Of a DNA stretch of 32,331 bases, positions 2,600 through 23,975 are shown in pieces. Each line of letters begins with the position of its first letter. Position 1 is the stretch's first letter. The notes beneath the pieces are model-generated. The model was not told the origin of the DNA, did not search any database, and saw only the letters and a list, made by a program, of their open reading frames with translations. Source of the DNA: an uncultured Clostridia bacterium (lineage in GTDB: Bacteria > Bacillota > Clostridia > Oscillospirales > Oscillospiraceae); NCBI GenBank assembly GCA_947165595.1, contig CAMVAV010000022.1, positions 1 through 32,331 of the forward strand, given 5' to 3'. The translations under genes were made by a program, and so were the position numbers.

Positions 2600-4081
2600 T
2601 CATTGTTTTTCCCGTTCCAGCAGGATCAGACGATCCCCGACCCGGTGGTCGAGCCGCCGGCTGTCCGAGAGATAGCCCTCCAGCACCGTGCGGCAGGAGG
2701 TCGCGACCATCCGCGGCCTTCCGTTGGCGAAAATCTCGTTGACGTCGATCTGGAAGCTCTCGCCCATGATGTTGAAGTGAAACGCCTGGAGCCCCACGGT
2801 GAAGACGCGGTCGTCCGGCACGTCCTCGCCGCAGTACAGGAATTCGCGGTAGGCGTGCTCCGCCTTGGAGTAGACGACGCGCAGCCCGTCGGAGAACTGG
2901 TAAAACTCGGAGTGCACGCCCGGCTCCCAGACCTCGTCGCGCAGCATGTGGAGCAGCATCCGCTTGAGCTGCGCGCCGCTGACCTTGACGACGTACGCCG
3001 CGTCGTCGTAGGGGAAGCCCTCGTTCAGATCGCCCAGCATGACGATGGGGCCCATCCACTTGGCGCGGATGCTGCCGGACGCCATCAGGAAGATGTCCAC
3101 GCCGAGGCTCTCGCGCATCGCGTCGGCAAACACGCAGCCCAGCTCCGTCTCCTGCGTGCGCTCGGGGTGGGTCAGGCGGCGCTTGAAGCGCGTGACCACG
3201 CGGCCGTACTTCTCGTCCGTGCGCGTTTTGAACTTGGTGATGAGCGTCTCGATGTCCCGGTCGTAGGGGCAGGTCTCCTCGCTGATCGGAATGGTCTGCC
3301 ACGTCCAGCTGTCCACGCGGTTTTGATCCATATCCACCATGAGGTCGAAGCGTCCGATCTGGTCCGTCCCGACGCCCGCCTGCACGATCAGAATGTCGTT
3401 GACCTTCAGCGGCTCTTCCATCAGAGTATGGCTGTGCCCGCCGATAATGACGTCCACGCCGCAGGCGGGGTCGATCGCCGCGGCGAGCTTTTGATCCTCC
3501 CGGAAGCCGATGTGCGTGAGCAGCACGGTGAAATCGACGTCGAGGCTTTTGTGAATGTCGCAGATGCGCTTGACCTCCTGCGCGGCGTCCTCCACGTCGA
3601 TGAAGGTCGCGATCAGGCCGTCCTTCTTCGTCTGCGCGATCACCTCCTCGGTCAGAATGCCGATGAAGAGGATCTTCATTCCGTCTATCTCGATGATCTG
3701 ATAGGGCTTGAACAGGTGCGCGTGATTGATGAGGATGTACAGGTTGGCGTTGATAATGGGGAACTGCGCGCACTTTTCCAGAAACAGCAGGTGTGCGAGC
3801 CCGTAGTCCACCTCGTGGTTGCCGATGGTGACCACGTCGGGCGCGAGCATGTTCATGATCTCGATGGTGGAGATGCCCTGAAACTCCTGGTCGATGATGG
3901 AGCCGCGGAACATGTCGCCCGCGATGCAGTAGAGCGTGTTGGGCTCCTCCTGCCGGACCCTGCTCACATAGCCCGAGAGCATGGAAACGCCGCCGACGAG
4001 CTTTTCGTCGACCTTCTCGGCGAGAAAATCGCCGTGCATGTCGTTGGAGTGCAGCAGCACCAGCTTTTTGAGGTTCTTCAT
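2600..4081 (-). CDS. 5'-nucleotidase/cyclic phosphodiesterase-family metallophosphatase (copy B)
   Basis: This 493-residue protein is a close tandem paralogue of the next gene downstream; the two align end to end with few gaps. It keeps all metal-binding motifs: HSNDMHGD, AGDMFRG, GNHE, THIG and GGHSHT. The C-terminal 5'-nucleotidase domain contains FPYDDAAYVVKVSGAQL. It has no signal peptide or membrane segment, so it is predicted to be cytoplasmic. The start is ATG 4081-4079 after a GAAGGGGGA ribosome site. It is the first gene of the minus-strand unit that runs from the promoter at 4193-4220 through copy A and possibly on to the DUF4428 gene. It is divergent from the REC-HD-GYP operon. A role in breaking down nucleotide products of second-messenger turnover is possible, but that is only inference from position. 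Confidence 0.92.
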   Translation of the reverse strand: MKNLKKLVLLHSNDMHGDFLAEKVDEKLVGGVSMLSGYVSRVRQEEPNTLYCIAGDMFRGSIIDQEFQGISTIEIMNMLAPDVVTIGNHEVDYGLAHLLFLEKCAQFPIINANLYILINHAHLFKPYQIIEIDGMKILFIGILTEEVIAQTKKDGLIATFIDVEDAAQEVKRICDIHKSLDVDFTVLLTHIGFREDQKLAAAIDPACGVDVIIGGHSHTLMEEPLKVNDILIVQAGVGTDQIGRFDLMVDMDQNRVDSWTWQTIPISEETCPYDRDIETLITKFKTRTDEKYGRVVTRFKRRLTHPERTQETELGCVFADAMRESLGVDIFLMASGSIRAKWMGPIVMLGDLNEGFPYDDAAYVVKVSGAQLKRMLLHMLRDEVWEPGVHSEFYQFSDGLRVVYSKAEHAYREFLYCGEDVPDDRVFTVGLQAFHFNIMGESFQIDVNEIFANGRPRMVATSCRTVLEGYLSDSRRLDHRVGDRLILLEREKQ

Positions 4082-4255: not shown

Positions 4256-4348
4256 GACGCCCCTCCGATGCCTGTGAGGGCCCGCGGCGCCGTGCGGGCG
4301 GAAACCGTGAAAATGACCCAAAATAAGGGCAAAAACGGCATTTTATTC

Positions 4349-4377
4349 TTGCGGTCTGACGAAAAGACTGCTATAAT
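4349..4377 (+). promoter_or_regulatory. Promoter of the HD-GYP/kinase operon
   Basis: A -35 box TTGCGG (4349-4354), 17-base spacer and perfect TATAAT (4372-4377) with the extended TGC in front. Start of transcription is expected near 4384, about 50 bases before the ATG at 4433. Confidence 0.8.
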
Positions 4378-4432
4378 GAACTGTAAGAATACTATGCCGC
4401 GTCAAGCGAATGCGGCGGAGGGGGAAAAGAAC

Positions 4433-5440
4433 ATGGCTGATTGGATCGTCGTGGTGGACGACGACGTGACGAATCTGAAGCTGGCGGGCCACATCCTGAG
4501 CAAGAGCCATATGCGCGTGTCGGCGCTGCGCTCGGGACAGGCACTTTTGGATTATCTGGTGGACAACAAACCGGATCTTATCCTGCTGGATATCCTGATG
4601 CCGGAGATGGACGGCTTTGAGACGCTCAAGCGGCTGCGCGAGATGGAGATCGGCGAGGAACAGATTCCCGTCATCTTCCTGACGGCGAACGAGGACGAGG
4701 GCTCCGAGCTGCGCGGCCTGCAGCTCGGAGCGATGGATTTTATCAAAAAGCCCTTCGTGCCGGAGGTGCTGGCGCTGCGCGTGCGGCACACCATCGACCT
4801 CATCCGGCTGCAGCGGAGTCTGGAGTCGGAGGTGGCGCGCAAGACACAGGTGGTCGAGAGCCTGTCGCTCCACGTGGTGCAGACGCTGGCGGAGGCGATC
4901 GACGCGAAGGACACCTACACCAACGGCCATTCGGGGCGCGTGGCGAAGTACTCCCGCGAGATCGCGAAGCGCGGCGGCTTTTCGGAAAAGCGGCAGAGCG
5001 ACATTTACATGATGGGCCTGCTGCACGACGTCGGCAAGATCGGCGTGCCGGACGCGGTCATCAACAAGCCCGCGTCGCTGACCGAGGACGAGTGGGAGCT
5101 GGTCAAGAACCACCCGGTCATGGGCGCGCGCATCCTCAAGAACATCAAGGAGATGCCGGAGCTGACCATCGGCGCGCGCTGGCACCACGAGAAATACGAC
5201 GGCACCGGCTATCCGGACGGCCTGTCGGGAATGGACATCCCGGTGGAGGCGCGGATCATCGCCATCGCCGACGCCTACGACGCCATGACGAGCCGCCGCA
5301 GCTACCGCGACGTGCTCTCGCAGGGCATTGTGCGCGAGGAGCTTGAAAAGGGAAAGGGGAAGCAGTTTGACCCCGAGTTCGCGGACATCATGCTCGACAT
5401 GATCAACGAGGACACGGGCTATGAGATGAGGGAGACGTAA
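4433..5440 (+). CDS. Response regulator with HD-GYP domain (c-di-GMP phosphodiesterase type)
   Basis: This 335-residue protein has RpfG architecture. An N-terminal receiver (about 1-120) carries the acidic cluster VVDDD, phospho-acceptor D53 in LLDILMPEMDG, and the conserved K in IKKPF. A linking helix leads to an HD-GYP domain (about 145-325) with H198-D199 in LLHDVGKIG, the following HH in RWHHEKYDG, and G259-Y260-P261 in GTGYPDG. Family members hydrolyse c-di-GMP to pGpG or GMP, with activity set by receiver phosphorylation. The start at 4433 is chosen because it follows GGAGGGGG and lies just downstream of the promoter; the frame is open further upstream but without a ribosome site. It is the first gene of a four-gene operon and the only receiver here with an enzymatic output. 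The partner kinase is probably the adjacent hybrid kinase, whose ATG follows its stop codon directly. Confidence 0.95.
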   Translation: MADWIVVVDDDVTNLKLAGHILSKSHMRVSALRSGQALLDYLVDNKPDLILLDILMPEMDGFETLKRLREMEIGEEQIPVIFLTANEDEGSELRGLQLGAMDFIKKPFVPEVLALRVRHTIDLIRLQRSLESEVARKTQVVESLSLHVVQTLAEAIDAKDTYTNGHSGRVAKYSREIAKRGGFSEKRQSDIYMMGLLHDVGKIGVPDAVINKPASLTEDEWELVKNHPVMGARILKNIKEMPELTIGARWHHEKYDGTGYPDGLSGMDIPVEARIIAIADAYDAMTSRRSYRDVLSQGIVREELEKGKGKQFDPEFADIMLDMINEDTGYEMRET

Positions 5441-8173
5441 ATGGACAGCAAGCTGCGGAAAAACGAAGTCTTCAAAACCTCCCATCTGGTGATCCTGGTC
5501 TCGCTGACCAACCTGACGATCATCCTGTTCGCCTCGACGCTGGTGCAGGGCTGGGAGACCTGGGTGCTTCCGCTTGCCGCCATCGGCGTGATCACGAGCT
5601 GGACGCTCCACATCCGCCAGTCGATGAGCGAGTCCGCGCGGCTGTGGGTCTATTCGCTGCTGCTGCTGGTTACGGCGTTCATCTACGGCATTCACGCGGA
5701 GAGCATCTTCGACATGACGACGATCCTCTCCGCGCTGATCCTGGTGTTCACCATGACGGGCGAGCGGCGGCTGATCGTGCTGAGCGTGGTGACCTATTAC
5801 CTGACGATGGCCTGCGCGGTGGTGAGCCTGTGGAACACCGGCGAGCTGGGCAGGGATTCGCTGCTGCGGCTTTTGCTGCACGCGGTGCTGATCGCCCTGA
5901 TCGGCTGGACGGCGTGGATCAACATCAAGAAGTGGAGCCAGCTTCTGTTCAACGTGGACAGCGACATCGCGAAGCTGGAGGACGAGACCCACCGGATGGA
6001 CGACTTCCTCACCAACCTCTCCCACGAGATCCGCACGCCGGTCAACGCGGTCATCGGCCTGACGACGGTGATCCTCAAGCGGGAGAAGGACGACGCGCTG
6101 CGCGAGGATATGCAGACCGTGCAGAACGCCGGCCACCGCGTGGCGGAGAAGATCAGCGACATTCTGGACTACACCGAGCTGGACGTCGGCAAGCTGATCG
6201 TCTCCCGCGAGCCGTACATGATCGCCTCGGTGGTGAACGACCTGGTGACGGATATCCGCCTGCGCGGGGAGCTTGCCTGCGAGCTGATCTTCGATATCGC
6301 GCCCGAGATTCCCTCCGCCCTCGTCGGCGACGCGGCGAAGGTCAAGAAGATCATGAACCACCTCGTTACCAACGGCGTCAAGTTCACGCCCAAGGGCGGC
6401 GTATACTGCCGCGTTTACACGCTGCCGCGCCCCTACGGCGTCAACCTCTGCATCGAGGTGTCGGACACCGGCATCGGCATGACGCAGACCGAGCTGGAGC
6501 ATATCTTTGAAAGCTTCTATCAGCGCAACTCCGGGCGTACCCGCGGCACGGGCGGCCTGGGGCTGGGCCTCACCATCGTGCACGGGCTCGTGCGGGAGAT
6601 GGGCGGCTTCATGACGATCGACAGCGAGCTGGGCGTCGGGACGACGGTCTCCGTCAGCATCCCGCAGGCGGTCGCGGACGCCGACCACTGCATGTCCGCG
6701 GAGGACCGCGAGCAGCTCTGCCTCGCGTGCTTCGACCGCCTGGAAAAGCTGGAGGTCCCGCGCGTGCGCGACTTCTACAACCGCATGATCGCCAACCTGA
6801 CGCGCGGCCTCGGCATCCCGCTGCACCGCGCCGAAAACGAGGAGGAGCTGCGCAGGCTGCAGCGGCTCTACCGCTTGACGCACATCTTTGTCGGCGCGGA
6901 GGAATACCTTGCCTCGGCGGACTACCTCGAATCGCTGGCGGACGAGCTGGAGGTCATCGTCATCGCGGACGAGCGCTTCCAGCCGCGGCGCAGCTCCTCG
7001 GTCAAGATCCTGCGCAAGCCCTTCTACTGCTTCCCCGCGGCAACGGTGGTCAGCCTGCCGTCGACGCGGCAGGAGGAGCTGGAGGACAACCGCCGCATCT
7101 ACACGCCGGGGCTCGAGGCGCTGGTCGTGGACGACGAGCCGATGAACCTGCTGGTGGCGGAGGGTATCTTCAGCGACTATGGGATGCACGTCACCACCGC
7201 GCGCTCCGGACCGGAGTCGATCGAGCTGTGCCAGAAGCGCCGCTTCGACCTGATCTTTATGGATCACATGATGCCCGAGATGGACGGCGTGGAGGCGATG
7301 AAGCGCCTGCGGAGCGAGGCGGCGCAGCGCGGCGAGGAGCTGACCATCCTCGCGCTGACGGCGAACGCGGTCAGCAGCGCGCGCGAAATGTTCCTGGCAG
7401 AGGGCTTCGACGGCTTTATTCCCAAGCCTATCGAGCTGACCGATCTCGAGCGCGTGCTCAAGCGCGTGCTGCCCAAATCCGCGATCCGCTACGACCGCCC
7501 CGAGCCGGGGGAGGAAAGAAGAGCGGCGTCCTCCGCGGAGCCGGAGGCCGCGGAGGAGCACGAGGGCCCCTTCGCCGCGCTGGACGCTGCGGGCATCCAC
7601 TCGCAGCAGGGGCTGCGCTACTGCCGGGGCGACAAGGATTTCTACCGCTCGATGCTGCAGGAATACGCCCAGAGCGCGGCGGGCAAGCTGGCCAACATCC
7701 GCCGCTTCCACGACGCCGGCGACTGGCAGAACTACTCCATCCTGGTCCACGCGCTCAAGAGCACGTCCAAGATGATCGGCGCGGAGGACCTGTCCGAGAC
7801 GGCGCGCACGCTGGAATTCGCCTCCAAGGAGGGCGACACGGGAACGGTCGCCGTCCACCACGAATCAATGCTCAAGCGCTACGCCGAGGTGGCGGACACG
7901 GTGCTGCGCTTCCTCGGCCTGCCCGCGGCGGGAGCGCCCTCCGCGGGCGGCGGGAACGACGATGAGGTGCTGGAGTTTGCCCCCGAGGGCGAGGAGGCCG
8001 GCGACGAGGTGCTGGAGTTTGCCCCGGAGGGCGAGGACGAGCCCGAACGCGTGACGCTGGAATTTGCCCCGGAGGAAGAAGCAAAGCCCGAAGGGAAGGA
8101 ACCGGGTCCCCACCCGGAGGACGGGGACGCGTCCGAAGACGGGGCGCTGGAATTCATGCCGGAGGAGGATTGA
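5441..8173 (+). CDS. Membrane hybrid histidine kinase (HisKA-HATPase-pseudoREC-REC-HPt)
   Basis: A 910-residue protein with five or six membrane segments in about residues 15-165 and no large ectodomain, so it probably senses within the membrane. H195 (LSHEIRTP) is the phospho-accepting histidine. The ATPase domain (about 295-410) has NHLVTNGVKFTP, SDTGIGM and GTGGLGLGLTIV. Residues about 430-545 look like a degenerate receiver without an acceptor Asp. A complete receiver (about 557-680) has VVDDEP, D608 (FMDHMMPEMDG) and PKP. An HPt domain follows with H770 (VHALKSTSK). The C-terminal 70 residues are an acidic repeat tail (LEFAPEGE). The ATG directly follows the TAA of the HD-GYP gene, with GAGGGAG as ribosome site inside it, so translation is coupled. 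The HPt could donate phosphate to the HD-GYP receiver, which is an inference from adjacency. Confidence 0.93.
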   Translation: MDSKLRKNEVFKTSHLVILVSLTNLTIILFASTLVQGWETWVLPLAAIGVITSWTLHIRQSMSESARLWVYSLLLLVTAFIYGIHAESIFDMTTILSALILVFTMTGERRLIVLSVVTYYLTMACAVVSLWNTGELGRDSLLRLLLHAVLIALIGWTAWINIKKWSQLLFNVDSDIAKLEDETHRMDDFLTNLSHEIRTPVNAVIGLTTVILKREKDDALREDMQTVQNAGHRVAEKISDILDYTELDVGKLIVSREPYMIASVVNDLVTDIRLRGELACELIFDIAPEIPSALVGDAAKVKKIMNHLVTNGVKFTPKGGVYCRVYTLPRPYGVNLCIEVSDTGIGMTQTELEHIFESFYQRNSGRTRGTGGLGLGLTIVHGLVREMGGFMTIDSELGVGTTVSVSIPQAVADADHCMSAEDREQLCLACFDRLEKLEVPRVRDFYNRMIANLTRGLGIPLHRAENEEELRRLQRLYRLTHIFVGAEEYLASADYLESLADELEVIVIADERFQPRRSSSVKILRKPFYCFPAATVVSLPSTRQEELEDNRRIYTPGLEALVVDDEPMNLLVAEGIFSDYGMHVTTARSGPESIELCQKRRFDLIFMDHMMPEMDGVEAMKRLRSEAAQRGEELTILALTANAVSSAREMFLAEGFDGFIPKPIELTDLERVLKRVLPKSAIRYDRPEPGEERRAASSAEPEAAEEHEGPFAALDAAGIHSQQGLRYCRGDKDFYRSMLQEYAQSAAGKLANIRRFHDAGDWQNYSILVHALKSTSKMIGAEDLSETARTLEFASKEGDTGTVAVHHESMLKRYAEVADTVLRFLGLPAAGAPSAGGGNDDEVLEFAPEGEEAGDEVLEFAPEGEDEPERVTLEFAPEEEAKPEGKEPGPHPEDGDASEDGALEFMPEED
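7958..8170 (+). repeat. Acidic LEFAPEGE repeat tail of the kinase
   Basis: Four imperfect copies of a (V/T/A)LEFxPE motif occur in the last 70 residues: VLEFAPEGE twice, TLEFAPEEE, and ALEFMPEED at the very end. The spacers are Glu/Asp/Gly/Pro-rich. The pattern resembles a linear docking motif repeated on a disordered tail. Confidence 0.75.
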
Positions 8174-8176
8174 GAT

Positions 8177-10846
8177 ATGGGCATCAAAAAGTATTTGGAG
8201 GCCGTATTCGATTCCGAGCAGGATCTCCAGACCCGCCTTTTCATGCAGCCCACGATGATGCTGCTGTGCGTGCAGCTGTTCATGTTTTTCTACTGCATTG
8301 CCGTCGGACAGCGCAAGTGGGTCATCGGCCTGATCGGCATCGTATTCCTGATCACCGCCGTTGTCGCCCAGTGGGGCTTCACCGTGAAAAAGGTGGCAAT
8401 CAGCGCGGCGGTCATCACGCTGATCATTGACTTTATCATGATGCCCGCGATCTTTTTCTTCAGCGGCGGCGGCGCGGGCGGCTCGCCGATCTGGTTCGTG
8501 GCGTTTTCGCTCTACATCAGCCTGGTGATGGCGGGGAAGCAGAGGGTGCTTTTCCTCATCGTCAACAGCGCCACCGCCTCGGCGTGCTACGCGCTCAATA
8601 TCGTCCATCCCGAGTACATGATGGTGCGCTCGACGGGCTACGCCAACCGCAGCTCGCTCTTTGCCGTGCTGATCGTCAGCCTGGCCTGCGGCATCGTCGT
8701 CAGCTATGCCGTGCGCGCCTTCGACGGCGAGATCAAGCGCTCCGACCTGCGCGGCAAGGAGATCGAAAAGCTCAACAAGGCACAGAACCAGTTTTTCTCG
8801 AACATGAGCCATGAGATCCGCACGCCGATCAACACGATCATCGGGCTCAACGAGATGATCCTGCGCGAGGACATCTCCGAAGAGGTCGCCGAGGACGCGA
8901 TGAACATTCAGGCGGCGAGCAAGATGCTGCTTCACCTCATCAACGACATCCTCGACATGTCGAAGATCGAGTCCGGCAAGATGGAGATCACCGCCGTGAC
9001 CTACGACACCGGCGCCATGCTCTCCGAGCTGGTCGGTATGCTTTGGATCCGCGCGAAGGAGAAGGGGCTGGAGTTTCACATCGACGTCGACCCCATGCTG
9101 CCGGCGCAGCTCATCGGCGACGAGGTCAAGATCAAGCAGATCCTCATCAACCTGCTGACCAACGCGATCAAGTACACGCGGGAGGGCTCCGTCACCCTGT
9201 CCATCCAGTATCAGCCGCAGGAGGGCGGGATGGGCCTTGTGACCTACTCCGTGTCCGACACCGGCATGGGCCTCAAGAAGGAGAGCATCCCCCACCTCTT
9301 CTCCGCCTTCCGGCGCGTGGACGAGGAGAAGAACCGCTTCATCGAGGGCACCGGCCTGGGGCTTTCCATCGTCAAGCAGTTCGTCGACCTGATGGGCGGC
9401 ACCATCCGGGTCAACAGCGTCTATATGCAGGGCTCCACCTTCATCGTCGAGCTCCCGCAGAAGGCGGCGGCGGACAAGCAGATCGGCGAGCTCAATCTGG
9501 AGCTGCGCCACTCGATGGGGCACCGCCGGCAGTACCGGCAGAGCTTCGAGGCGCCCGACGCCCGCATCCTGGTCGTGGACGACAACTCCACGAACCTGCT
9601 GGTCGTGCGCAAGCTGCTGCGCGACACGCGCGTGAACGTCGAAACCGCGGAGAGCGGGAAGGAAGCGCTCAAGATGACGCTCGAAACGCAGTATCACCTG
9701 ATCTTCATGGACCACATGATGCCCGAGATGGACGGCATCGAGTGTCTGCATGAGATTCGCCGCCAGGTCGGCGGACTGTGCCGCGAGACGAAGGTCGTGG
9801 CGCTCACGGCGAACGCCGGCAGCGACACGCAGGCGCTCTATGTGAAGGAGGGCTTCGACGGCTATCTGCTCAAGCCGGTGAACGGCGACGAGCTGGAGCG
9901 CGAGCTGCTGCGGATGCTGCCGCGCGAGCTGATCCGCGTCATCGACACGGAGCTTGCGGCGGCGGACGACCCCAGCCTCTCCGTCCGCCGGAGGGAGAAG
10001 AAGCTGCAGACGGTCATCACGGCGGACAGCGTGTGCGACCTGCCCAAGCAGATGATCAAAAGCCGCGAGATCGAGCTGCTGCCCTACCACATCCGCACGA
10101 AGAACGGCCTGTTCCTCGACGGGGTGGAGGCGGAGTCGCGCGACGTGCTGGAATACATGTCGCAGGGACGCGGCGAGCTGCACTCGGAGCCGCCGGCGGA
10201 GGCGGAGTACGAGGCGTTCTTTGCCCGCCAGCTCGTGCGCGCGAACAACGTCATCCACATCACCATGGCAAACGGCGCGAGCGAGGGCTACGCCGCCGCG
10301 AAGGAGGCGACGCGGACCTTCGACAACGTCTTCGTGGTCGACAGCGGACACCTTTCCACGGGTATGGGGCTCATGGTGCTCGCCGCGGATCAGATGGCGA
10401 AAAACGGCGTTCCGCCGGAGAAGATTCTCAAGGAGCTCGAGCTGCTCCGGCCGCGCCTGCACACGAGCTTCATCGTGGACAGCACGGAATTCCTTGCCCG
10501 CGCGGGACATATCAGCCGGGGACTGAACCACCTGATCGACGGGCTGATGGTGCATCCGGTGCTGGTGATGCGCAAGTACAAGATGGTCGTCGACCGCATG
10601 TTCATCGGCAGCCGCGCCAAGACGTGGAAGCGATTCATCGCGTGGTCCTTCGGCAAGCATGACAATGTGGACCGCAAGATGCTCTTCATCACCTACGCGA
10701 GCCTCAGCCGGAGCGATCTGGAGGAGGTTGCCGCGGAGATCAGAAAGTACGTCGACTTTGAGGAGATCATCTTCCAGGAGACCTCGCCCGCCATTTCCTC
10801 GAACTGCGGGCCGGGCACGCTGGGGCTGTCCTATTGGACGGTTTGA
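8177..10846 (+). CDS. Membrane hybrid histidine kinase fused to a DegV domain
   Basis: An 889-residue protein. About six membrane segments lie in residues 25-190, followed by a short coiled linker and the H-box with H212 (MSHEIRTP). The ATPase domain (about 312-425) has NLLTNAIKYT, SDTGMGL and GTGLGLSIV. A full receiver (about 461-585) has VVDDN, D512 (FMDHMMPEMDG) and LKP. Residues about 608-889 match a complete DegV/EDD domain: ADSVCDLP with S618, HITMANGAS, VVDSGHLSTGMG, STEFLARAGHIS, HPVLVM and a terminal CGPGTLGL. DegV (FakB-type) proteins bind one fatty acid. The usual His of the final H-x-GPG motif is N876 here. There is no HPt. The start overlaps the GGAGGA at the end of the preceding gene (3-base gap), so it is translated in the operon. 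Fatty-acid sensing is inferred from the family, not shown. Confidence 0.93.
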   Translation: MGIKKYLEAVFDSEQDLQTRLFMQPTMMLLCVQLFMFFYCIAVGQRKWVIGLIGIVFLITAVVAQWGFTVKKVAISAAVITLIIDFIMMPAIFFFSGGGAGGSPIWFVAFSLYISLVMAGKQRVLFLIVNSATASACYALNIVHPEYMMVRSTGYANRSSLFAVLIVSLACGIVVSYAVRAFDGEIKRSDLRGKEIEKLNKAQNQFFSNMSHEIRTPINTIIGLNEMILREDISEEVAEDAMNIQAASKMLLHLINDILDMSKIESGKMEITAVTYDTGAMLSELVGMLWIRAKEKGLEFHIDVDPMLPAQLIGDEVKIKQILINLLTNAIKYTREGSVTLSIQYQPQEGGMGLVTYSVSDTGMGLKKESIPHLFSAFRRVDEEKNRFIEGTGLGLSIVKQFVDLMGGTIRVNSVYMQGSTFIVELPQKAAADKQIGELNLELRHSMGHRRQYRQSFEAPDARILVVDDNSTNLLVVRKLLRDTRVNVETAESGKEALKMTLETQYHLIFMDHMMPEMDGIECLHEIRRQVGGLCRETKVVALTANAGSDTQALYVKEGFDGYLLKPVNGDELERELLRMLPRELIRVIDTELAAADDPSLSVRRREKKLQTVITADSVCDLPKQMIKSREIELLPYHIRTKNGLFLDGVEAESRDVLEYMSQGRGELHSEPPAEAEYEAFFARQLVRANNVIHITMANGASEGYAAAKEATRTFDNVFVVDSGHLSTGMGLMVLAADQMAKNGVPPEKILKELELLRPRLHTSFIVDSTEFLARAGHISRGLNHLIDGLMVHPVLVMRKYKMVVDRMFIGSRAKTWKRFIAWSFGKHDNVDRKMLFITYASLSRSDLEEVAAEIRKYVDFEEIIFQETSPAISSNCGPGTLGLSYWTV

Positions 10847-10902
10847 CGCGGCGTCGGGTACGGACGGAAAAAATACGATCAGGGAACGGGAGGCGGTGAC
10901 GC

Positions 10903-13900
10903 ATGAAAAAGCTTGCATATACGGTGAAGCTTCTGTTCCTCGTCATCCTCGCCCTGACCACCTGGCTGTTTTTCTACGCGGTTTTCCGCCTCTATGACCC
11001 GAAGGCGGAGACGTACGTCGGCTCCTTCGACGTGCATGAGCTGTCGGAGGGCTGGACGCTGACCACGGACGACGGCGTGACCTTTGAAAATGTGAGCCTG
11101 CCGCTGGACGGATTCGAGCGTTCCGGCGAGCGGGTGTGGTTCCGCAATACGCTGCCGGCGGACGTCCGGGAGGGAATGCGGCTGTGCGCGCGCGCACAGC
11201 GGCAGGATATTACGATCCGGGTGAACGGCGTCGAGCGCGGGCATTACTACGCGGAGGACATCGGACCGGGACGCAGGACCGCTCCGAGCGCGTACCTGCT
11301 GGTCGATCTCTATGACGAGGACGCGCTCGGCACGCTCGAGCTTGAGATCGTGCCCAATGAGAGCGAGATCCTGCGCTACCACGCGGTGACCTACGCCTAC
11401 GGCAACAACGTCTGGTTCCCGCTGCTCGCGCGCAACGTCGTCAAGGTGGCGATGGCGGATATCCTGGTCGTGGTCGGCGTGCTGGCCGCGGCGGCGTATT
11501 TCCTCAGCCGGAAGAAGCTGCACTTTACCAAGGGCATCCTCTACCTTGCCGAGACGATGTTTGTGGCGGGCATGTGGATACTCAGCGAGTCGGAGATCCG
11601 GCAGATCATCTTCCGCTCGCCCTCGCTGAGCAATGTTTTTGCGTTCCTGCTGATCGAGATCATGCCGCCGTTCCTGCTCATGTATTTCGACGAGATCCAG
11701 GACCACCACTACGCCAGGGGCTACGTCGCGCTCGGCGTCGCGTTTCTTGTCAACGTGCTGCTGGCCTCCGCGCTGAACGCCGCGCGCATCGTCGGGTATT
11801 ACGACATGCTGCGGTATTTCCACGGCATCTGCGGTCTGGCGATCGCGTGGGTCGTGGGGACGCTGGTGCAGGATATCCGCAGAAAACGCATTCAGTCGTA
11901 TTCGATCACGGCGTTCGGCATGCTGCTGCTGCTCGGCTCCTTCGTCGCGGAGCTGCTCAAATTCTACTTTACCAGCGCCGCGGGCATCGGCGCGCTGATG
12001 GGTCTCGGACTGATCCTGCTGCTGGGCGCGACGGTGATGCAGGCGGTGCGGGACGAGCTGCGCCTGACGGAGCAGAAGCGCATGGCGGAGGCGGCAAACC
12101 GCGCGAAGTCCTCCTTCCTCGCCAACATGTCGCATGAGATCCGCACGCCCATCAACGCCATCCTCGGCCTGGACGAGATGATCCTGCGCGAGAGCGGCGA
12201 GGGAGAGACGGTGAAATACGCCGCGGATATTCAGGCCGCCGGACGGACGCTGCTCTCGCTCATAAACGATGTGCTCGACCTGTCCAAGGTGGAGGAGGGC
12301 AAGATGGAGATCGTTCCGGCGCAGTACGAGCTGCGGCGGACGGTCAACGATCTGGTGAACCTGATCCGCCGCCGCGCGGAGAAGAAGGGCCTGCGTTTTG
12401 AGCTCCGCCTGGACGAGAACGCGCCGTGCCGGCTGGTCGGCGACGAGGTGCGCATCCGCCAGTGCGTGCTGAATCTGCTGACCAACGCGGTGAAGTATAC
12501 GGAGCGGGGCACGGTGACGTTCGAGGTGGGCTTTGAGCGCCTGTCCGACGAGAAGGCGGCGCTTCGCTTCCGCGTTTCCGACACGGGCATCGGCATCAAG
12601 CCTGAGGATATGGACAAGCTGTTCGCCCCGTTCGCCCGCTTTGAGCTGGAGCGCAACCGCACCGTCGAGGGCACGGGGCTCGGCATGGCGATCACGCGGC
12701 AGCTGCTGGAGCTGATGGGCAGCCGCCTGGAGGTGGAGAGCGTTTACGGCGTCGGCTCGACCTTCTCCTTCTCGGTGGAGCAGACGGTCGAGGACTGGAC
12801 CGGCGTCGGACCTGCGGAGGAGGCCGCGGAGCCGGACGCCGGGCGCCGGACCGGGTATCACGAGCGCTTCCACGCTCCGGAGGCGCATGTGCTGGTCGTG
12901 GACGACATGCCGGTGAACCTGACCGTGATCTGCGGCCTGCTGAAGCGGACGCAGCTGCGGGTGGACACGGCGGAATCCGGGCCGGAGGCACTGGAAAAGG
13001 CGGCGGGACAGCGCTACGACATCGCGTTCATCGACCACATGATGCCCGGAATGGACGGCGTCGACACGCTCGGCGAGCTTAAAAAGCTGCCGGGCACGGA
13101 GCGGACCGTCTGCATCGCGCTGACGGCGAACGCGCTGGTTGGCTCGCGGGAGAAGTATTTGGCGGCGGGCTTTTCGGACTATCTGCCCAAGCCCGTGGAC
13201 AGCGTGCGGCTGGAGGAAATGCTGATGCGGTGGCTCCCGCCGGAGAAGGTCATCATTCCGGAGGAGGTCCCGCCCGAGGAGAACGCCGGGACGGAGGAGA
13301 CCGGGCTGCTGCCGGCGTGGCTGAAGCAGGTCGAGGGGCTGGACACGTCGGCGGGGATGCGCTTTTGCGGCTCGCAGGAGGATTATCTCGAGGCGCTGGC
13401 GATCTTTGCCGGGAACGCCCCGTCGATCGAGGACGAGCTCGAGGTGCTGCGCCTCGAGAGCGATACGGACGGCCTGACGGTGAAGGTACACGCGCTCAAA
13501 AGCGCCTCCCGCGCCATCGGAGCGGGCGCGCTGAGCGACCGTGCGGAGCGGCTGGAGCTTGCGGGCAAGGGCGGCGACGCGCGGACGCTCTACGGCGGGC
13601 TGGACGAGCTGCTCTCGGGCCTGCGCGCGCTGGGCGAGCAGCTTGCCCCGCTGCGCGAGACGGCGGAACGGGAGGAGGAAACGCTGCCGCCGATCTCGCC
13701 GGAAAAGCTGCGCGAGGCGTACGAGGACCTGCGCGTCTCCGCCGACAGCTTCGATTCCGAGGGGGCGTGCTTCGTGCTGAACTATCTCGCCGGCTGCCGC
13801 CTGCCGCCGGAGGACCGCGCCTGCTGCGACGAGCTGCTGCTGGCGGCGCGGCGCTTTGACTGGGACCGGTTCCTGGAGCTGCTCAACGAACGGACGCTCC

Positions 13901-13938
13901 ACCCCGGCGGAGCCGAAACGGAAACAGAAAACGCCTGA
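10903..13938 (+). CDS. 7TM-type hybrid histidine kinase with REC and HPt
   Basis: A 1011-residue protein. It has one N-terminal membrane helix (about 6-27), then an extracytoplasmic region (about 28-175) rich in beta strands that resembles a galactose-binding-like sandwich. Seven membrane helices follow (about 180-385), a layout like the 7TMR-DISM receptors. The H-box holds H411 (MSHEIRTPINAILGL). The ATPase domain has NLLTNAVKYT, SDTGIGI and GTGLGMAI. The receiver (about 658-780) has D711 (FIDHMMPGMDG) and PKP, and the HPt has H863 (VHALKSASRAIGA). A final helical segment (about 925-1005) recurs in two other kinases of the window. It is 56 bases after the preceding gene and is preceded by a GGGAGG site. 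It is the last gene of the operon: the stop codon lies inside the terminator stem. Paralogous to the kinase at 28179-31250. Confidence 0.93.
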   Translation: MKKLAYTVKLLFLVILALTTWLFFYAVFRLYDPKAETYVGSFDVHELSEGWTLTTDDGVTFENVSLPLDGFERSGERVWFRNTLPADVREGMRLCARAQRQDITIRVNGVERGHYYAEDIGPGRRTAPSAYLLVDLYDEDALGTLELEIVPNESEILRYHAVTYAYGNNVWFPLLARNVVKVAMADILVVVGVLAAAAYFLSRKKLHFTKGILYLAETMFVAGMWILSESEIRQIIFRSPSLSNVFAFLLIEIMPPFLLMYFDEIQDHHYARGYVALGVAFLVNVLLASALNAARIVGYYDMLRYFHGICGLAIAWVVGTLVQDIRRKRIQSYSITAFGMLLLLGSFVAELLKFYFTSAAGIGALMGLGLILLLGATVMQAVRDELRLTEQKRMAEAANRAKSSFLANMSHEIRTPINAILGLDEMILRESGEGETVKYAADIQAAGRTLLSLINDVLDLSKVEEGKMEIVPAQYELRRTVNDLVNLIRRRAEKKGLRFELRLDENAPCRLVGDEVRIRQCVLNLLTNAVKYTERGTVTFEVGFERLSDEKAALRFRVSDTGIGIKPEDMDKLFAPFARFELERNRTVEGTGLGMAITRQLLELMGSRLEVESVYGVGSTFSFSVEQTVEDWTGVGPAEEAAEPDAGRRTGYHERFHAPEAHVLVVDDMPVNLTVICGLLKRTQLRVDTAESGPEALEKAAGQRYDIAFIDHMMPGMDGVDTLGELKKLPGTERTVCIALTANALVGSREKYLAAGFSDYLPKPVDSVRLEEMLMRWLPPEKVIIPEEVPPEENAGTEETGLLPAWLKQVEGLDTSAGMRFCGSQEDYLEALAIFAGNAPSIEDELEVLRLESDTDGLTVKVHALKSASRAIGAGALSDRAERLELAGKGGDARTLYGGLDELLSGLRALGEQLAPLRETAEREEETLPPISPEKLREAYEDLRVSADSFDSEGACFVLNYLAGCRLPPEDRACCDELLLAARRFDWDRFLELLNERTLHPGGAETETENA

Positions 13939-18583: not shown

Positions 18584-21500
18584 TCACACAGAGTTCTGTG
18601 ACAGCGCGCTTTCGATCCGGTCCATGATGGCGCACGCCGCGTCCTGGTCGAGGTCTGTCACCGCGGCCGCCAGCGCGGTCAGCTCCGCCTCGGCCTCCGG
18701 CGGGCAGCGGTAGGAGCGAAGCTTCGCCACGGTCTCGTCCGCCGCGTCGACGTCAAAATCGTCCAGCGCCGTGCGCAGCATGTCGAACAGGACCCGCAGC
18801 ATGTCCGCGTCCGCCTCTTCCTTTTCTTCGGCGGGGACCTCCGGCTCCTCCGGGGCAAGGACGCCCCGAAGCTTTTCGCCGTAGGAACGCCACTCGGCGA
18901 CAAAGGTGCCGTGCAGACGCGCGAGCGTGTCCGTGTCGCCGTCGCGCGCGGCGAATTCCAGCATCTTCGCCATGCCCGCCAGCGGCACGATGCCGATCGT
19001 CGCCGCGGCGCTCTTCATGCCGTGTACGTGGATGCGGTAGGCGGCGAGCGCCTCCGCGTCCCCGGGACGCGCGCCGAGCTCCGCGTACATCCGGTCGAGC
19101 TTGTCCGCCTGCAGCAGCGCCGTCTCGCGGAAATCCCGCACCGTCGAGGCGAGCAGCTCGCGCTCCGGCAGATGGAGCCAGGCGTAGTTCCAGTCCAGCC
19201 CGTCCACCGTCGGAAGGTCCTCCGGCAGGGAGCCCCCGGCGCTCTCCCGCGCGGAGGGCGCTTCCGCTCCCTCCGCGGGCTCGAAGGGCTTGAGCAGCTG
19301 CGGCGGCAGCGCGTCGCGGATCGCGTGCTCCAGCTTGTCCGAGACGACGGGCTTGGAGATGAAGCCGTCGAAGCCCGCCTCGAGGTACTGCTCCTTCGCC
19401 CCGGTCACGGCGTTCGCCGTGAGGATGTAGATGGGGAGCGTTTCGTAGCCCTCCATCGTGCGCATGCGCTTCATGGTCTCCACGCCGTCCAGATCGGGCA
19501 TCATGTGGTCCATGAACACCATGTCGAAGCGCTCGTTTTTGGCGATCTCCAGCGCCTCCAGACCGCCCGACGCCTCCGTGATCTGAATCTGCGTCACCTT
19601 GAGAAGGCTGCGGAACACCTTGCGGTTCATGGCGTTGTCGTCCACCACCAGCACGCGGGCGTCCGGCGCGATGAACGCGCCCTCGTGGCTGTAGCGCTCC
19701 TCCGGCGCGTGCATGGTCTCGTTGAAGTCGCCGATGGGCGTTGGGTCGATGATCTTCTGGCGGAGATTGAAGTAGAATTTGGAGCCCTTGCCGTAGACGC
19801 TCTCCACCTCGAGGCGGCTGCCCATCATATCGAGCAGCCGGACGGTGATCGCCATGCCGAGGCCCGTGCCCTCGATGTGGCGGTTGCGCCCCTCCTCGAT
19901 CCGTTGGTACGCCTCGAACAGCTTGGGCAGGTCCTCCTCCCTGATGCCGATGCCCGTATCCTCCACCTCGAAGCGGAGAATGGCGTCGCCGTCCTCCCGC
20001 GTCCCGCTCACGCGGAACCACACGGTGCCGGAGGGGGTGTATTTCACGGCGTTGGTCAGGATGTTGGTGACCACCTGCCGGATGCGCACGTCGTCGCCGA
20101 ACAGCACCCGCGGCAGCGTCTCCTCGATGCACAGCTCCAGGTGCAGGTCCTTTGCCTGCGCGCGCTGGCAGACCATGTTGTGCAGGTCGCGGATCAGGAC
20201 GGCAAGCTCGTATTCCACGGGCACGATCTCCATCTTGCCAGACTCGATCTTCGAGGAATCCAGAATGTCGTTGATGAGCGAGAGCAGCGTGTTGCCGGCG
20301 GTGTAGATGTCGGCGGCGTAGCCCTTGATCTCGGGCTCGGTGCTCTCGCGCAGGATCATTTCGTCCATGCCGAGCACGGCGTTGATCGGCGTTCGGATCT
20401 CGTGGGACATGTGGGCGAGGAAGCGGGACTTTGCCTGATTGGCGTACTCCGCCTCCTCCTTTGCCTCGCGGATCTGATCGTACTGCCGGTGAATGACCGC
20501 CATATTGCTCATCTTGGCGCCCGTCCACGCGAGGAACGCGACCAGCATCGCGCTGACAAAGGCGCAGTAGAGCTTGAAGAAGACGCGCTCGTAGAGCTCC
20601 GCGTCCTTGTGCATCGCGAACACGGCTTCCTTTTTCGCCGCTCCGCTCAGCTCGTCGAGCACGCGGACGCGCAAACGGAAATCGCCGTAGGGCAGAGACG
20701 TGAGGGATTCCGGCGTCATCTCGCTCTGGCGCTGGAGCGTTTCGGAAAAGCTCGTGCCCTCCAGCGTCACGGACACCAGCGGGTCGGACATGGCGTAGTT
20801 CAGCACCGCGGGGCGTATCTGGATGCGCCCGCGCCCGGAGGGGATCTGATACGCCCCGTCGCGGAATTCCACCTCGGCGCCCTCGTCGGTGAAGGAGGAG
20901 ATGACGATGTTGAAGCTGCTGTTGAGCTCGTTGAAGTCCCGCAGGCCGACGCGGCGCACGCCGTCCGTGCAGCAGAGATACAGCGCCTCGTCGGAGACGG
21001 CGTTCCACGCGTTCGCCGTCAGGCTCGCGTCGAAGCCCCAGTTGTGATTGAGCAGCGTGCAGGAATAGCCGCTCTCGTCCGCGAGCATACGCTCCGTGTC
21101 CGTGACGTACACGCCCGCGCTGGAGCTGACCCACGCGAGGCCGTCGGGCGAAAAGCAGACGTCGTAATCGTTCTTGTAGGGGAAGTTTTCCAGCCGCCGC
21201 AGCGTGCCGTTCGCCTCGCGGTAGTAGAGGCCGCCGCTCGTCACGCAGAGCAGCCCGTCCCCGCAGCGCACGAGGCGCAGCACGACCGGGGAGCGGAGCC
21301 CCTCCTCCGTGCCGATGTGTCCGGTGACCTGCCGGTTTTTGATCTGATAGATGCCGTCGCCGTCGGAGCCGGCGTAGATCGTCCCGTCGTCGCACTCCAC
21401 CGCGGTGAGAATCTTCGGGAGAACCAGCCCATCCTCCGAGCTGAGGACGGAGGTCACCCTGCCGTTTTCAATGAAGTTGAGCCCGTCCGTGGACGCCGCC

Positions 21501-23401
21501 AGCACGCAGCCGTCCGAAAGCTCCATCGTGAAGCGGAAGCGGTTGCCCAGCACCGTTTCGTCGTCGCCGCCGTAGTGCTTGAGCGTTCCGTCCGGCGCGA
21601 CGCGCACCAGGCCGGACTGGCTGTAGGTGCTGACCCACAGGTTTCCCTTGGAATCCTTCATCAGGTGCCGGACGCGGTCGCCCCGGAACAGCTCGGAGAT
21701 CGGGTCGTAGAGATTGACGCAGTTCCCCTCGTCCAGCACCTCCAGCCCCGTGTCGGTGGCGACGTAGAGCTTCCCGCCGTCCAGCAGGAGTGCGTTGGTC
21801 GGCGAGGACTCCAGCCCCGCCTTGTGCGATATGTTCGTGAACGGGGTGTAGGCGAGCTTCATCACGCCCTGCTGCGAGGAGGAGAACCAGATGTTGCCCT
21901 GATAGTCCTCGATCACGTCGGAGGCGGCGCTGCCGAAATCGTCGCGCGTCAGGATCTCCGCGTCCAGCCGTCGGTCGACAAAGGCAATGCCCATGGAGGA
22001 GGCGACGAAATAGCCGCCCTGGTTCTGAACGTAACGAATCCGGTTGACGTCGCTCAGCCCCTGGATGGAGGTCTTCGAGAGCGGCTCCAGGCTCCCGCTC
22101 CGGCTCACGCGCATGCGGATCAGCTCGCTGCCCGAGGTGCCGACGAGCACCTGCCCGCCGTCGTCATAGGCGACCGCGCTGTAGGAGAGCTCGGGATCTC
22201 TGCTCTGCCCCGAGAAGAGAAGCTTGTCGTCCTGGATCAGGAACAGCAGCCCCCGCGAGGTGACGCCGCAGACGCGCCCGTTTCGCAGATTGACGAGGGA
22301 GGAGATGTTGTTGATCTGCGGATATTTGGTGTAGACGTGGACCTCGCCCCCGGCGTCGATCCGGCACAGCTCCGAGGTGGTGCCGACGTAGACGCAGCCG
22401 TTTTCGCCCTCGCAGAGGGAGCGGATGGAATCGGAGGAGAGCCCGTCCGCCGCGGTGTAGAACTCGATGGCGCCCGTGTCGGCGTGATAGCGGGCGAGCC
22501 CGCTGTCGTTCGTGCCGATCCACAGCGCGCCGGAGTCGTCCTCACAGAGGCAGATCGCATTCTCGATCCGCTCGTCGAGCTGGATCTGCTCGAATTTCGA
22601 GCCGTTGCAGCGATAGAGCCCCGAGTACGCGCCCGCCCAGATATAACCGTCCGAGGTCTGGGCGATGGCGTTGATCTCGGAGGAGACGAGTCCGTCGCTC
22701 CTTCCGTAGACCACGAAGTCATAGTCCGCGCCGAAGTCCGCCGTCGCCGAGGCGGGGACCGTCAGCGCCGCGGCGAGCGCCGCCGGCAGCAGCACAAGCG
22801 CGAGAGCGAGCGCGGAGACGTCCGTCGTTTTTTTCTTTTCCTCCTGCTTTTCGCGCCGCTTGCGGACGAAATAGAGGATGCTCATGGCGATGAGAATGCT
22901 GATCGTCTTGTCCGGCATGTTGACCAGCAGCTCGCCCGCGACGCAGCACACGACGCGAAAGTCGATGTAGTACGAGAGCATGTCCACCAGGGCGTCTCCC
23001 CAGGGATGCCCCACATAGCCGCCGTTGAGGTACATGTTCAGCGGCGTCGAAACCACGGTCATGACGAAGCCGGTGAACAGCGCCGTCGCGATCACAGAGA
23101 AGGAGTCGATCTTCCGGTCGCGCGGGAACGCCCAGCCCACCGCGAAGCCGCCGGCGATGCTGACGACGGAGTACCAGAGCTCCGCCGGATCGAACAGGGC
23201 GGCGATCAGATTCATCAATCCGCCGGAGATCGCGCCCGCGACCGGCCCCAGCAGCACCGCCGAGAGAAACGTGCCGACGGAGTCGAGCCAGAAGGGCAGA
23301 TACAGACGGAGCGCCAGCTCCCTGCCCAGCAGATTCACCCCGATCCCGAGCAGGATCAGGGCGAGGTTGGCGACGGTAACCGGAAAACCCCACTTTTTCA
23401 T
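18584..23401 (-). CDS. Giant hybrid kinase: ECF-S-like membrane module, beta-propeller, kinase, REC, HPt
   Basis: A 1605-residue protein. Residues 1-180 form about six membrane helices with PFWLDSVGTFLSAVLLGP, resembling ECF transporter S components. A Lys-rich stretch (about 180-192), a hydrophobic helix and ASATA (about 217-221) then look like an internal signal peptide. Residues about 225-815 are two-component-regulator propeller repeats (IWAGAYSGLYR, LWIGTNDSGLARY, IWFSSSQQGVMKL, LWVSTYSQSGLVR), followed by a Y_Y_Y-like domain (about 855-920) and a TM helix (about 944-964). The kinase has H1000 (MSHEIRTPINAVLGM), NILTNAVKYTP, EDTGIGI and GTGLGMAI. The receiver has D1298 (FMDHMMPDLDG), the HPt H1460 (VHGMKSAA), and a helical C-terminal module follows. 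The propeller architecture is that of HTCS sensors, but the AraC DNA-binding domain is absent. The ATG overlaps the stop of a 10-codon leader ORF. Confidence 0.93.
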   Translation of the reverse strand: MKKWGFPVTVANLALILLGIGVNLLGRELALRLYLPFWLDSVGTFLSAVLLGPVAGAISGGLMNLIAALFDPAELWYSVVSIAGGFAVGWAFPRDRKIDSFSVIATALFTGFVMTVVSTPLNMYLNGGYVGHPWGDALVDMLSYYIDFRVVCCVAGELLVNMPDKTISILIAMSILYFVRKRREKQEEKKKTTDVSALALALVLLPAALAAALTVPASATADFGADYDFVVYGRSDGLVSSEINAIAQTSDGYIWAGAYSGLYRCNGSKFEQIQLDERIENAICLCEDDSGALWIGTNDSGLARYHADTGAIEFYTAADGLSSDSIRSLCEGENGCVYVGTTSELCRIDAGGEVHVYTKYPQINNISSLVNLRNGRVCGVTSRGLLFLIQDDKLLFSGQSRDPELSYSAVAYDDGGQVLVGTSGSELIRMRVSRSGSLEPLSKTSIQGLSDVNRIRYVQNQGGYFVASSMGIAFVDRRLDAEILTRDDFGSAASDVIEDYQGNIWFSSSQQGVMKLAYTPFTNISHKAGLESSPTNALLLDGGKLYVATDTGLEVLDEGNCVNLYDPISELFRGDRVRHLMKDSKGNLWVSTYSQSGLVRVAPDGTLKHYGGDDETVLGNRFRFTMELSDGCVLAASTDGLNFIENGRVTSVLSSEDGLVLPKILTAVECDDGTIYAGSDGDGIYQIKNRQVTGHIGTEEGLRSPVVLRLVRCGDGLLCVTSGGLYYREANGTLRRLENFPYKNDYDVCFSPDGLAWVSSSAGVYVTDTERMLADESGYSCTLLNHNWGFDASLTANAWNAVSDEALYLCCTDGVRRVGLRDFNELNSSFNIVISSFTDEGAEVEFRDGAYQIPSGRGRIQIRPAVLNYAMSDPLVSVTLEGTSFSETLQRQSEMTPESLTSLPYGDFRLRVRVLDELSGAAKKEAVFAMHKDAELYERVFFKLYCAFVSAMLVAFLAWTGAKMSNMAVIHRQYDQIREAKEEAEYANQAKSRFLAHMSHEIRTPINAVLGMDEMILRESTEPEIKGYAADIYTAGNTLLSLINDILDSSKIESGKMEIVPVEYELAVLIRDLHNMVCQRAQAKDLHLELCIEETLPRVLFGDDVRIRQVVTNILTNAVKYTPSGTVWFRVSGTREDGDAILRFEVEDTGIGIREEDLPKLFEAYQRIEEGRNRHIEGTGLGMAITVRLLDMMGSRLEVESVYGKGSKFYFNLRQKIIDPTPIGDFNETMHAPEERYSHEGAFIAPDARVLVVDDNAMNRKVFRSLLKVTQIQITEASGGLEALEIAKNERFDMVFMDHMMPDLDGVETMKRMRTMEGYETLPIYILTANAVTGAKEQYLEAGFDGFISKPVVSDKLEHAIRDALPPQLLKPFEPAEGAEAPSARESAGGSLPEDLPTVDGLDWNYAWLHLPERELLASTVRDFRETALLQADKLDRMYAELGARPGDAEALAAYRIHVHGMKSAAATIGIVPLAGMAKMLEFAARDGDTDTLARLHGTFVAEWRSYGEKLRGVLAPEEPEVPAEEKEEADADMLRVLFDMLRTALDDFDVDAADETVAKLRSYRCPPEAEAELTALAAAVTDLDQDAACAIMDRIESALSQNSV

Positions 23402-23430
23402 GCCGCGAGCCTCAGTTCAGATTCGTCCAT
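23398..23430 (-). CDS. 10-codon leader ORF overlapping the giant kinase start
   Basis: ATG 23430-23428 lies six bases after a strong GGGAGG site and opens a frame MDESELRLAA ending in TGA at 23400-23398. That stop overlaps the kinase ATG as ATGA. The kinase itself has only a weak GAGG in front, located inside this small ORF. The arrangement fits translational coupling through a leader peptide. Whether the peptide has a function is unknown; chance placement of an ATG is the alternative. Confidence 0.45.
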   Translation of the reverse strand: MDESELRLAA

Positions 23431-23441
23431 GCGGCGCCTCC

Positions 23442-23975
23442 CTATGCCCAGGGGTCGGAGGACGCGGGCTCGCGGATGTCGCTCAGGCACTGCAGCTCGT
23501 TGAGGAACCACTGCCCCGTGGAGGGCTTGCGGCGCAGCTTGACCGGACGCGGCGAATCGGCGCCGCCGCTCGTCACATAAAGCGTCGCCCAGTTCTCGTC
23601 CGGGTAGGAATAGGGGTTGTCGCTGACCGTGATCGAATACGGCACGGCGGGCGTATAGCTGTTTTGCGGCGTCGCTCCGGCGAAGAAGGACAGCGCTTTG
23701 TAGCCCTTGCCCTTCAGGCGGTCGCGGATAAACTGCTTTTCGTAGTCGGACACCGGCTCCGGCCCCTTCAGAAAGCCGAGCATTTCATAGACGGCCGCCT
23801 CGTCCTTTTCATAGCCGCACAGCGCGGCGATCGCCAGCGCGGCGGTCTTGAACGGAGAATCCAGCGCCGCCTCCGGCAGAGCCCGAAGCTCCGCGAGCGC
23901 GGCGGGCAGGGCGGAGAAGGTGAAGGTCTCGCTCCGATTGCCTCCGTTTGCGCCGTTGTTGCCGAACAGTCCCAT
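23442..23975 (-). CDS. DUF6935-like protein of unknown function
   Basis: A 177-residue soluble protein with a start at ATG 23975-23973 after AAAGGAG. It contains TFTFSALPAALAELRALPEA, an Ala-rich helical segment (FKTAALAIAALCGYE), FLKGPEPVSDYEKQFIRDRL, GATPQNSYTPAVPYSITV, and a C-terminal QWFLNELQCLSDIREP with DPWA at the end. I recognise this as the DUF6935 type of small Clostridia protein, whose function is not known; the match is from memory. The MGLFG start resembles the start of DUF4428 proteins such as the one at the left edge of the window. It is the first gene of the minus-strand operon leading into the giant kinase, 40 bases before that kinase. The MoxR/VWA pair is transcribed divergently from it. 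Confidence 0.75.
   Translation of the reverse strand: MGLFGNNGANGGNRSETFTFSALPAALAELRALPEAALDSPFKTAALAIAALCGYEKDEAAVYEMLGFLKGPEPVSDYEKQFIRDRLKGKGYKALSFFAGATPQNSYTPAVPYSITVSDNPYSYPDENWATLYVTSGGADSPRPVKLRRKPSTGQWFLNELQCLSDIREPASSDPWA

Follow-up and report, generated by a model that had tools for sequence, protein, structure and literature searches.

A DegV-fused hybrid histidine kinase and its partner kinase in Clostridia: a possible lipid-sensing phosphorelay

Results

A hybrid histidine kinase ending in a DegV domain

The window, by which we mean the whole stretch of 32,331 nucleotides analysed here, from an uncultured Clostridia bacterium, carries a response regulator gene, a hybrid kinase gene that we call the partner, and a second hybrid kinase gene whose product ends in a DegV domain (Table 1). 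This last gene, at 8177-10846, is one stop-free frame of 889 residues. Its domains follow one another in the order HisKA, HATPase_c, Response_reg and DegV, all far above the Pfam cut-offs, and with a HisKA histidine, an ATPase and a receiver phospho-aspartate in a single chain the protein is a hybrid histidine kinase. Pfam, AF2 and PDB comparisons agree with the original prediction, made from the sequence alone, that a single frame joins membrane helices, HisKA, ATPase, receiver and a whole DegV domain. H212 and D512 are both invariant among 11 relatives. Across the 99 fused loci described below, the H-box pattern is present in 98 and the receiver pattern likewise in 98, the one receiver exception (L181) retaining D, T and K by eye.

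Table 1. Coordinates of the genes, domains and residues discussed in the text.
Feature	Position	Strand	Basis and remarks
Response regulator, REC-HD-GYP	4433..5440	+	Pfam Response_reg 98.8 bits, HD_5 117.6 bits
Partner hybrid kinase, 910 aa: membrane part, HisKA, ATPase, receiver-like stretch, receiver, Hpt	5441..8173	+	Pfam HisKA, HATPase_c, Response_reg, Hpt
ATPase-receiver stretch of about 150 residues, signature of the partner family	6671..7129	+	Alignment of 26 partners; conserved, no Pfam match
DegV hybrid kinase, 889 aa	8177..10846	+	Pfam domains
N-terminal membrane part, residues 1-190	8177..8746	+	Hydropathy scan with overlapping segments, about 5-6 hydrophobic segments
HisKA with H212	8780..8977	+	Pfam; HisKA match at this place also in whole-genome search
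HATPase_c	9116..9463	+	Pfam
Receiver, D512	9566..9901	+	Pfam; D invariant, 11 relatives
Flexible linker, residues 594-607	9956..9997	+	pLDDT under 50 in REC-DegV model
DegV domain, residues 613-886	10013..10834	+	Pfam, AF2, PDB matches
His778 at FakB1 Arg173 position	10508..10510	+	Alignment
Asn876 at FakB1 His270 position	10802..10804	+	Alignment

The DegV assignment was examined by domain search, by comparison with the PDB and by structure prediction. The Pfam DegV match is significant and full-length (147 bits against a cut-off of 27, profile positions 3-277 of 280), and the C-terminal domain also scores above the cut-off of TIGR00762, the NCBIfam DegV model. A search of the PDB with the C-terminal 300 residues gives 20 distinct sequences at E values up to 0.001, nearly all of them DegV or Fak B by name. 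An AF2 model of the domain, made with the 11 relatives, recovers the DegV fold (pLDDT 89, pTM 0.88), and Foldseek and VIA-align group it over its full length with solved DegV/FakB structures.

That the DegV domain follows the receiver, as had been predicted, is borne out by the Pfam domain order and by a nearly constant spacing of 28-32 residues between the two matches in 99/99 loci. In a model of the receiver and DegV domains together, built from 98 sequences, the individual domains are good, the pTM is 0.65 and the linker is disordered, so no direct contact between receiver and DegV domain is predicted. Rigid packing of the DegV domain on the receiver is unsupported for the same reason, and a PDB comparison of this model retrieved the DegV and receiver folds separately.

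The partner hybrid kinase

Directly upstream of the DegV kinase, on the same strand, 90 of the 99 loci carry a hybrid kinase of a distinct family. With a profile built from 63 of these partners, 89 of the 90 score at least 733 bits, the remaining one being a cut fragment, and other hybrid kinases of the displayed loci score at most 432 bits. The partner in the window scores 1168 bits, against 262-404 bits for the window's other hybrid kinases. Seven of the nine loci without a partner end less than 700 bases upstream; L174 has only a receiver gene before the contig end, with no partner in view, and at L054 a partner is absent upstream of the DegV kinase despite there being room for one.

The stretch between ATPase and receiver that marks the partner family looks, by eye, like a degenerate receiver. 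We used this stretch, as the 26-row alignment, to search genomes for the partner, which was found in the identical 10/392 genomes of the class sample and 7/18 genomes of the genus sample that hold the DegV kinase, plus a weak match in genome G520 (67 bits) in the class sample. The G520 gene, at the edge of a contig, encodes a more distantly related HK-REC-Hpt protein, and what follows it is a gene for a receiver and not for a DegV kinase. Chance odds for the co-occurrence (5e-19 and 3e-5) ignore kinship and should not be read literally. Two fragmented genomes have unequal copy numbers, with three DegV kinases and two partners in G004 and two and three in G008. The partner is a near-obligate companion of the DegV kinase.

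Distribution of the Hpt domain across the pair

In 89 pairs both ends are visible, many of them from closely related loci, and the Hpt lies on the partner only in 80, on the DegV kinase only in 5 (L044-L047 and L173), on neither in 4 and on both in 0. Exactly one Hpt per pair is thus found in 85/89, and none in 4/89. Among the four pairs without an Hpt, L051, L060 and L180 have a REC-Hpt gene just upstream of the partner, and the locus of the fourth, L099, ends too early to tell. The active histidine is present in 80/80 partner copies of the domain, 71 by pattern and 9 by eye (HxVK, HxMK or HxIK), and in 8/8 copies on DegV kinases.

A stricter rule of one Hpt per gene cluster fails, since extra Hpt genes lie near at least four loci: a further Hpt gene upstream at L056 and L086, a REC-GGDEF-Hpt gene downstream at L044, and further Hpt genes downstream at L045. 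The rule stands at the level of the pair.

The response regulator and the gene neighbourhood

The regulator gene most likely starts at ATG 4433, after a GGAGG-like stretch, the start in the list of open reading frames being TTG 4229, and it ends one base ahead of the partner start. Translation of 4433-5440 gives a receiver followed by the HD-GYP motifs HDVGK and HHEKYDGTGYP. Where the partner is complete (85 loci), what precedes it falls into these classes: a frame with an HD-GYP match (48 loci), with a receiver alone (15), with Hpt or REC-Hpt (5), with two receivers (2) or with no recognised domain (12), and no called frame (3). At the 37/85 loci without an HD-GYP match, often just the last few hundred bases of the preceding gene are in view. 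A GGDEF domain occurs at L175 and L177, in the latter between two receivers (Pfam).

The wider surroundings in the window form a hybrid-kinase island (4433-31250), in which several receiver proteins lie between the kinases; 6/26 HisKA matches of the genome fall in the 32-kb window. Antisense open frames of more than 1000 codons run opposite the kinase genes (4343-7861, 7865-10918 and 10879-13902 on the minus strand, 18911-23503 on the plus strand), as is to be expected with G or C at 91% of third positions, the figure for the 8177-10846 gene. On the minus strand, at 1075-2571 and 2600-4081, lie two adjacent, similar 5'-nucleotidase/metallophosphatase genes, the first recognised by Pfam and the second by eye.

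Distribution and origin of the fusion

A survey for the same architecture gave a working set of 99 loci that share the fusion, after four repeats were dropped, with a complete DegV domain in 98. A pattern scan of contigs found 481 stretches confirmed as DegV-domain relatives, and fusion status was examined in the best 80 of the 481, of which 78 have HK-REC-DegV as a single frame, whereas a contig start truncates the remaining two; these 80 loci are from Clostridia-type organisms wherever titled. A fusion unique to this window is thereby ruled out, and the identical architecture across independent assemblies rules out an assembly join or a frameshift.

Fused frames were found in 7/18 genomes of the genus sample, where the gene of G013 is split over two contigs, in 3/150 genomes of the family sample, plus one cut at a contig edge (G108), and in 10/392 genomes of the class sample, the window's own included. 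Among the 398 genomes of the phylum sample, fused frames above threshold occur only in G000, G241 and G264, all of the window's class, and the remaining four DegV matches are stand-alone. The kinase pair is carried by some gut and rumen Clostridia; among cultured relatives, Schaedlerella arabinosiphila DSM 106076 has a fused locus (L114). The window's own genome, a 78% complete assembly of 2.8 Mb in 165 contigs, yields five DegV matches, of which all but the fused one are stand-alone.

We built a DegV tree from 54 stand-alone and 45 fused domains, the latter comprising 23 from profile or protein searches and a random draw of 22 from the pattern scan. By a quick method, one branch of length 1.16 splits fused from stand-alone domains with SH-aLRT 100; row L180 is long and its placement unsure. 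Longer proteins that carry an Hpt after the DegV domain form a subgroup of the fused group. As judged from these sequences, the fusion is old and recurs in Clostridia, and is not a single oddity.

Two observations on DegV genes may be added. A stand-alone DegV gene lies immediately downstream of the DegV kinase at L099:5981-6877. The DegV frames at L186:5701-7590 (630 aa) and L187:6820-8559 (580 aa) are without a second Pfam domain and are perhaps just long upstream frames.

Pocket residues and constraint

In S. aureus FakB1, a network of Thr62, Ser95, Ser171 and His270 holds the acid, Arg173 acts as a latch and Asp164-Lys186 form a mobile lid (PMC8892158), and Arg173 is reported essential for the FakA reaction (PMC9136124). 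We mapped these positions via 2dt8 and motif context, rather than by alignment to the FakB1 structure. The lowest-confidence part inside the DegV model (residues 171-190) coincides with the position of the mobile lid as described there.

The prediction of Asn for His in the final motif holds well beyond the window: the His270 position is Asn in 97/98 fused domains, with His in one (L174), and His in 52/52 readable stand-alone domains, with one gap. One of the two scan patterns contained NCGPG, which biases the 75 scan loci towards Asn; the 23 fused domains found by profile or protein search have Asn in 22 and His in one (L174), the DegV search profile itself having been made from Asn-bearing rows. 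The alignment indicates that the swap characterises the fused family and is not peculiar to one gene, and locus L185, the edge-cut piece from G108 with Asn at this position, is most likely a fused member.

Other positions have drifted as well. Arg173 is kept in 30/98 fused against 54/54 stand-alone domains, and Ser95 in 39/98 against 54/54; at the Thr62 site 72/98 fused domains have Ser or Thr, with Pro in 21-24/98 and Ala in 2/98, and Thr62 is kept in 53/54 stand-alone domains. In the window, then, neither the His270 of the carboxylate network (Asn876) nor the Arg173 of the FakA reaction (His778) is present. Only 22/98 fused domains retain Ser/Thr62, Ser95 and Arg173 together, which, with the Pro at the Thr62 site, suggests that some members of the family may no longer have a working acid-binding site. 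Gly275, His91 and Asp45 (model numbering) are each found in 98/98 fused domains.

Between the window and L036, a single orthologue pair and thus thin evidence, the dN/dS values of the membrane part, kinase core, receiver, linker and DegV domain are 0.36, 0.09, 0.03, 0.23 and 0.34, respectively. In this one pair the DegV domain appears to evolve like the input part and not like the catalytic parts; a fast membrane part and a fast DegV domain around a fixed core is the pattern that a sensor would show.

Discussion

We read the DegV domain as a FakB-derived ligand sensor within a two-kinase phosphorelay, the best of the readings considered and one to which we give an even chance. The domain would be a ligand-binding module, tethered by a short flexible linker to the receiver that precedes it in a membrane-anchored hybrid kinase and able to reach the inner face of the membrane, where its candidate ligand is most likely amphipathic, a fatty acid or a relative. 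Opening or closing of the DegV lid would alter how the receiver takes or gives phosphate, control presumably running from DegV domain to receiver. We infer that the two kinases form a complex and work as one relay, as a rule sharing one Hpt, through which phosphate would pass from the receivers to the neighbouring response regulator; in the window the output would be HD-GYP, a domain of the c-di-GMP phosphodiesterase type.

The original prediction left a choice between a sensor and an output. We favour the sensor, because Arg173 is mostly lost and the DegV domain evolves like the membrane part, in the one pair compared. The carrier half of that choice, in which the domain would hold or release a fatty acid for FakA upon phosphorylation of the receiver, has come out as very improbable. 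A FakA-type protein (244 bits) is encoded in the genome beside the four stand-alone DegV proteins, but replacement of Arg173 in 68/98 fused domains (by His here) and of His270 in 97/98 makes a carrier for FakA unlikely, and the neighbour clusters listed include no FakA gene.

Two further readings concern the DegV domain. It may no longer bind a small ligand and may instead hold the two kinases together as a surface for docking or dimerisation, which we consider unlikely, the near-obligate partner, the drift of the ligand site (Ser95 kept in 39/98 and Arg173 in 30/98, Pro or Ala at Thr62 in 26/98, His270 lost in 97/98) and the lack of any predicted fixed contact between it and the receiver in the same chain (pTM 0.65) being in favour of this reading. 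Such a surface should be under receiver-like constraint, yet the DegV dN/dS is 0.34 against 0.03, in one pair; moreover, the whole DegV fold is retained, and Asn (97/98) and Gly275, His91 and Asp45 are near-invariant, as if a site were kept. Somewhat less doubtful, and still short of the sensor of fatty acids and their relatives, is a sensor whose ligand is not a free fatty acid but, say, an isoprenoid, a neutral amphiphile, an acyl phosphate or an acyl thioester; the Asn swap would then mark a loss of acid binding. Asparagine can still form hydrogen bonds to a carboxylate, as a matter of general chemistry, and the other three sites are kept in 22/98, both of which speak against this reading. 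In its favour stands the systematic change, in the fused group, of the FakB1 carboxylate network (Thr62, Ser95, Ser171, His270) described in PMC8892158.

Returning to the ligand sensor, we tentatively propose, at a little under even confidence for the proposal as a whole, a putative lipid-sensing phosphorelay of Clostridia. A fatty-acid carrier would have been captured once by a membrane hybrid kinase and, with His270 changed to Asn and Arg173 relaxed, would have given up the chemistry of acid phosphorylation; as a sensor on the cytosolic side it would now sample inner-leaflet amphiphiles and set c-di-GMP enzymes through a co-inherited partner and a single Hpt, shared and movable. The original prediction did not include the partner kinase, the way Hpt is distributed across the pair, the response regulator or the recurrence of the fusion in Clostridia.

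To our knowledge, anaerobic gut bacteria have few known cytosolic proteins that sense free fatty acids or membrane amphiphiles. If the proposal is right, a sensor domain has arisen from a carrier protein of lipid metabolism, and a lipid-to-c-di-GMP signal in Lachnospiraceae- and Oscillospiraceae-type bacteria becomes directly testable. The family also provides a natural experiment, one kinase pair with the Hpt on either member or on a separate REC-Hpt protein. Our search, which covered the full text of published papers outside subscription, gave no description of a DegV-kinase fusion; the accessible part of PMC3146951 deals only with DegV genes that adjoin hemolysin III genes. The parts are of known kinds, and their combination and pairing appear undescribed in the literature searched. 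Automatic databases may well hold the architecture without comment.

Compared with known systems, the fused domain shares with the FakB/DegV family (PF02645, TIGR00762) the whole fold, Ser15, Asp18 and the GPG motif, at about 20-24% identity to solved members such as S. aureus FakB1, T. thermophilus 2dt8 and G. stearothermophilus 1pzx; unlike that family it is joined to a hybrid kinase, and it forms a separate group in the tree. Hybrid kinases of the BarA, TorS and ArcB type have the HisKA-HATPase-REC and REC-Hpt layout in common with the pair, and their NCBIfam models match the kinase core, far below cut-offs. In those kinases the Hpt usually comes after the receiver, whereas here the DegV domain takes that place and the Hpt lies on the partner or after the DegV domain. 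The 4433-5440 product has a receiver and then an HD-GYP domain in common with REC-HD-GYP response regulators of the RpfG type. Its nearest NCBIfam model is that of the NosR family (NF053512, 178.6 bits, below the cut-off of 400), and unlike the RpfG type its gene adjoins two paired hybrid kinases, one of them with a DegV domain.
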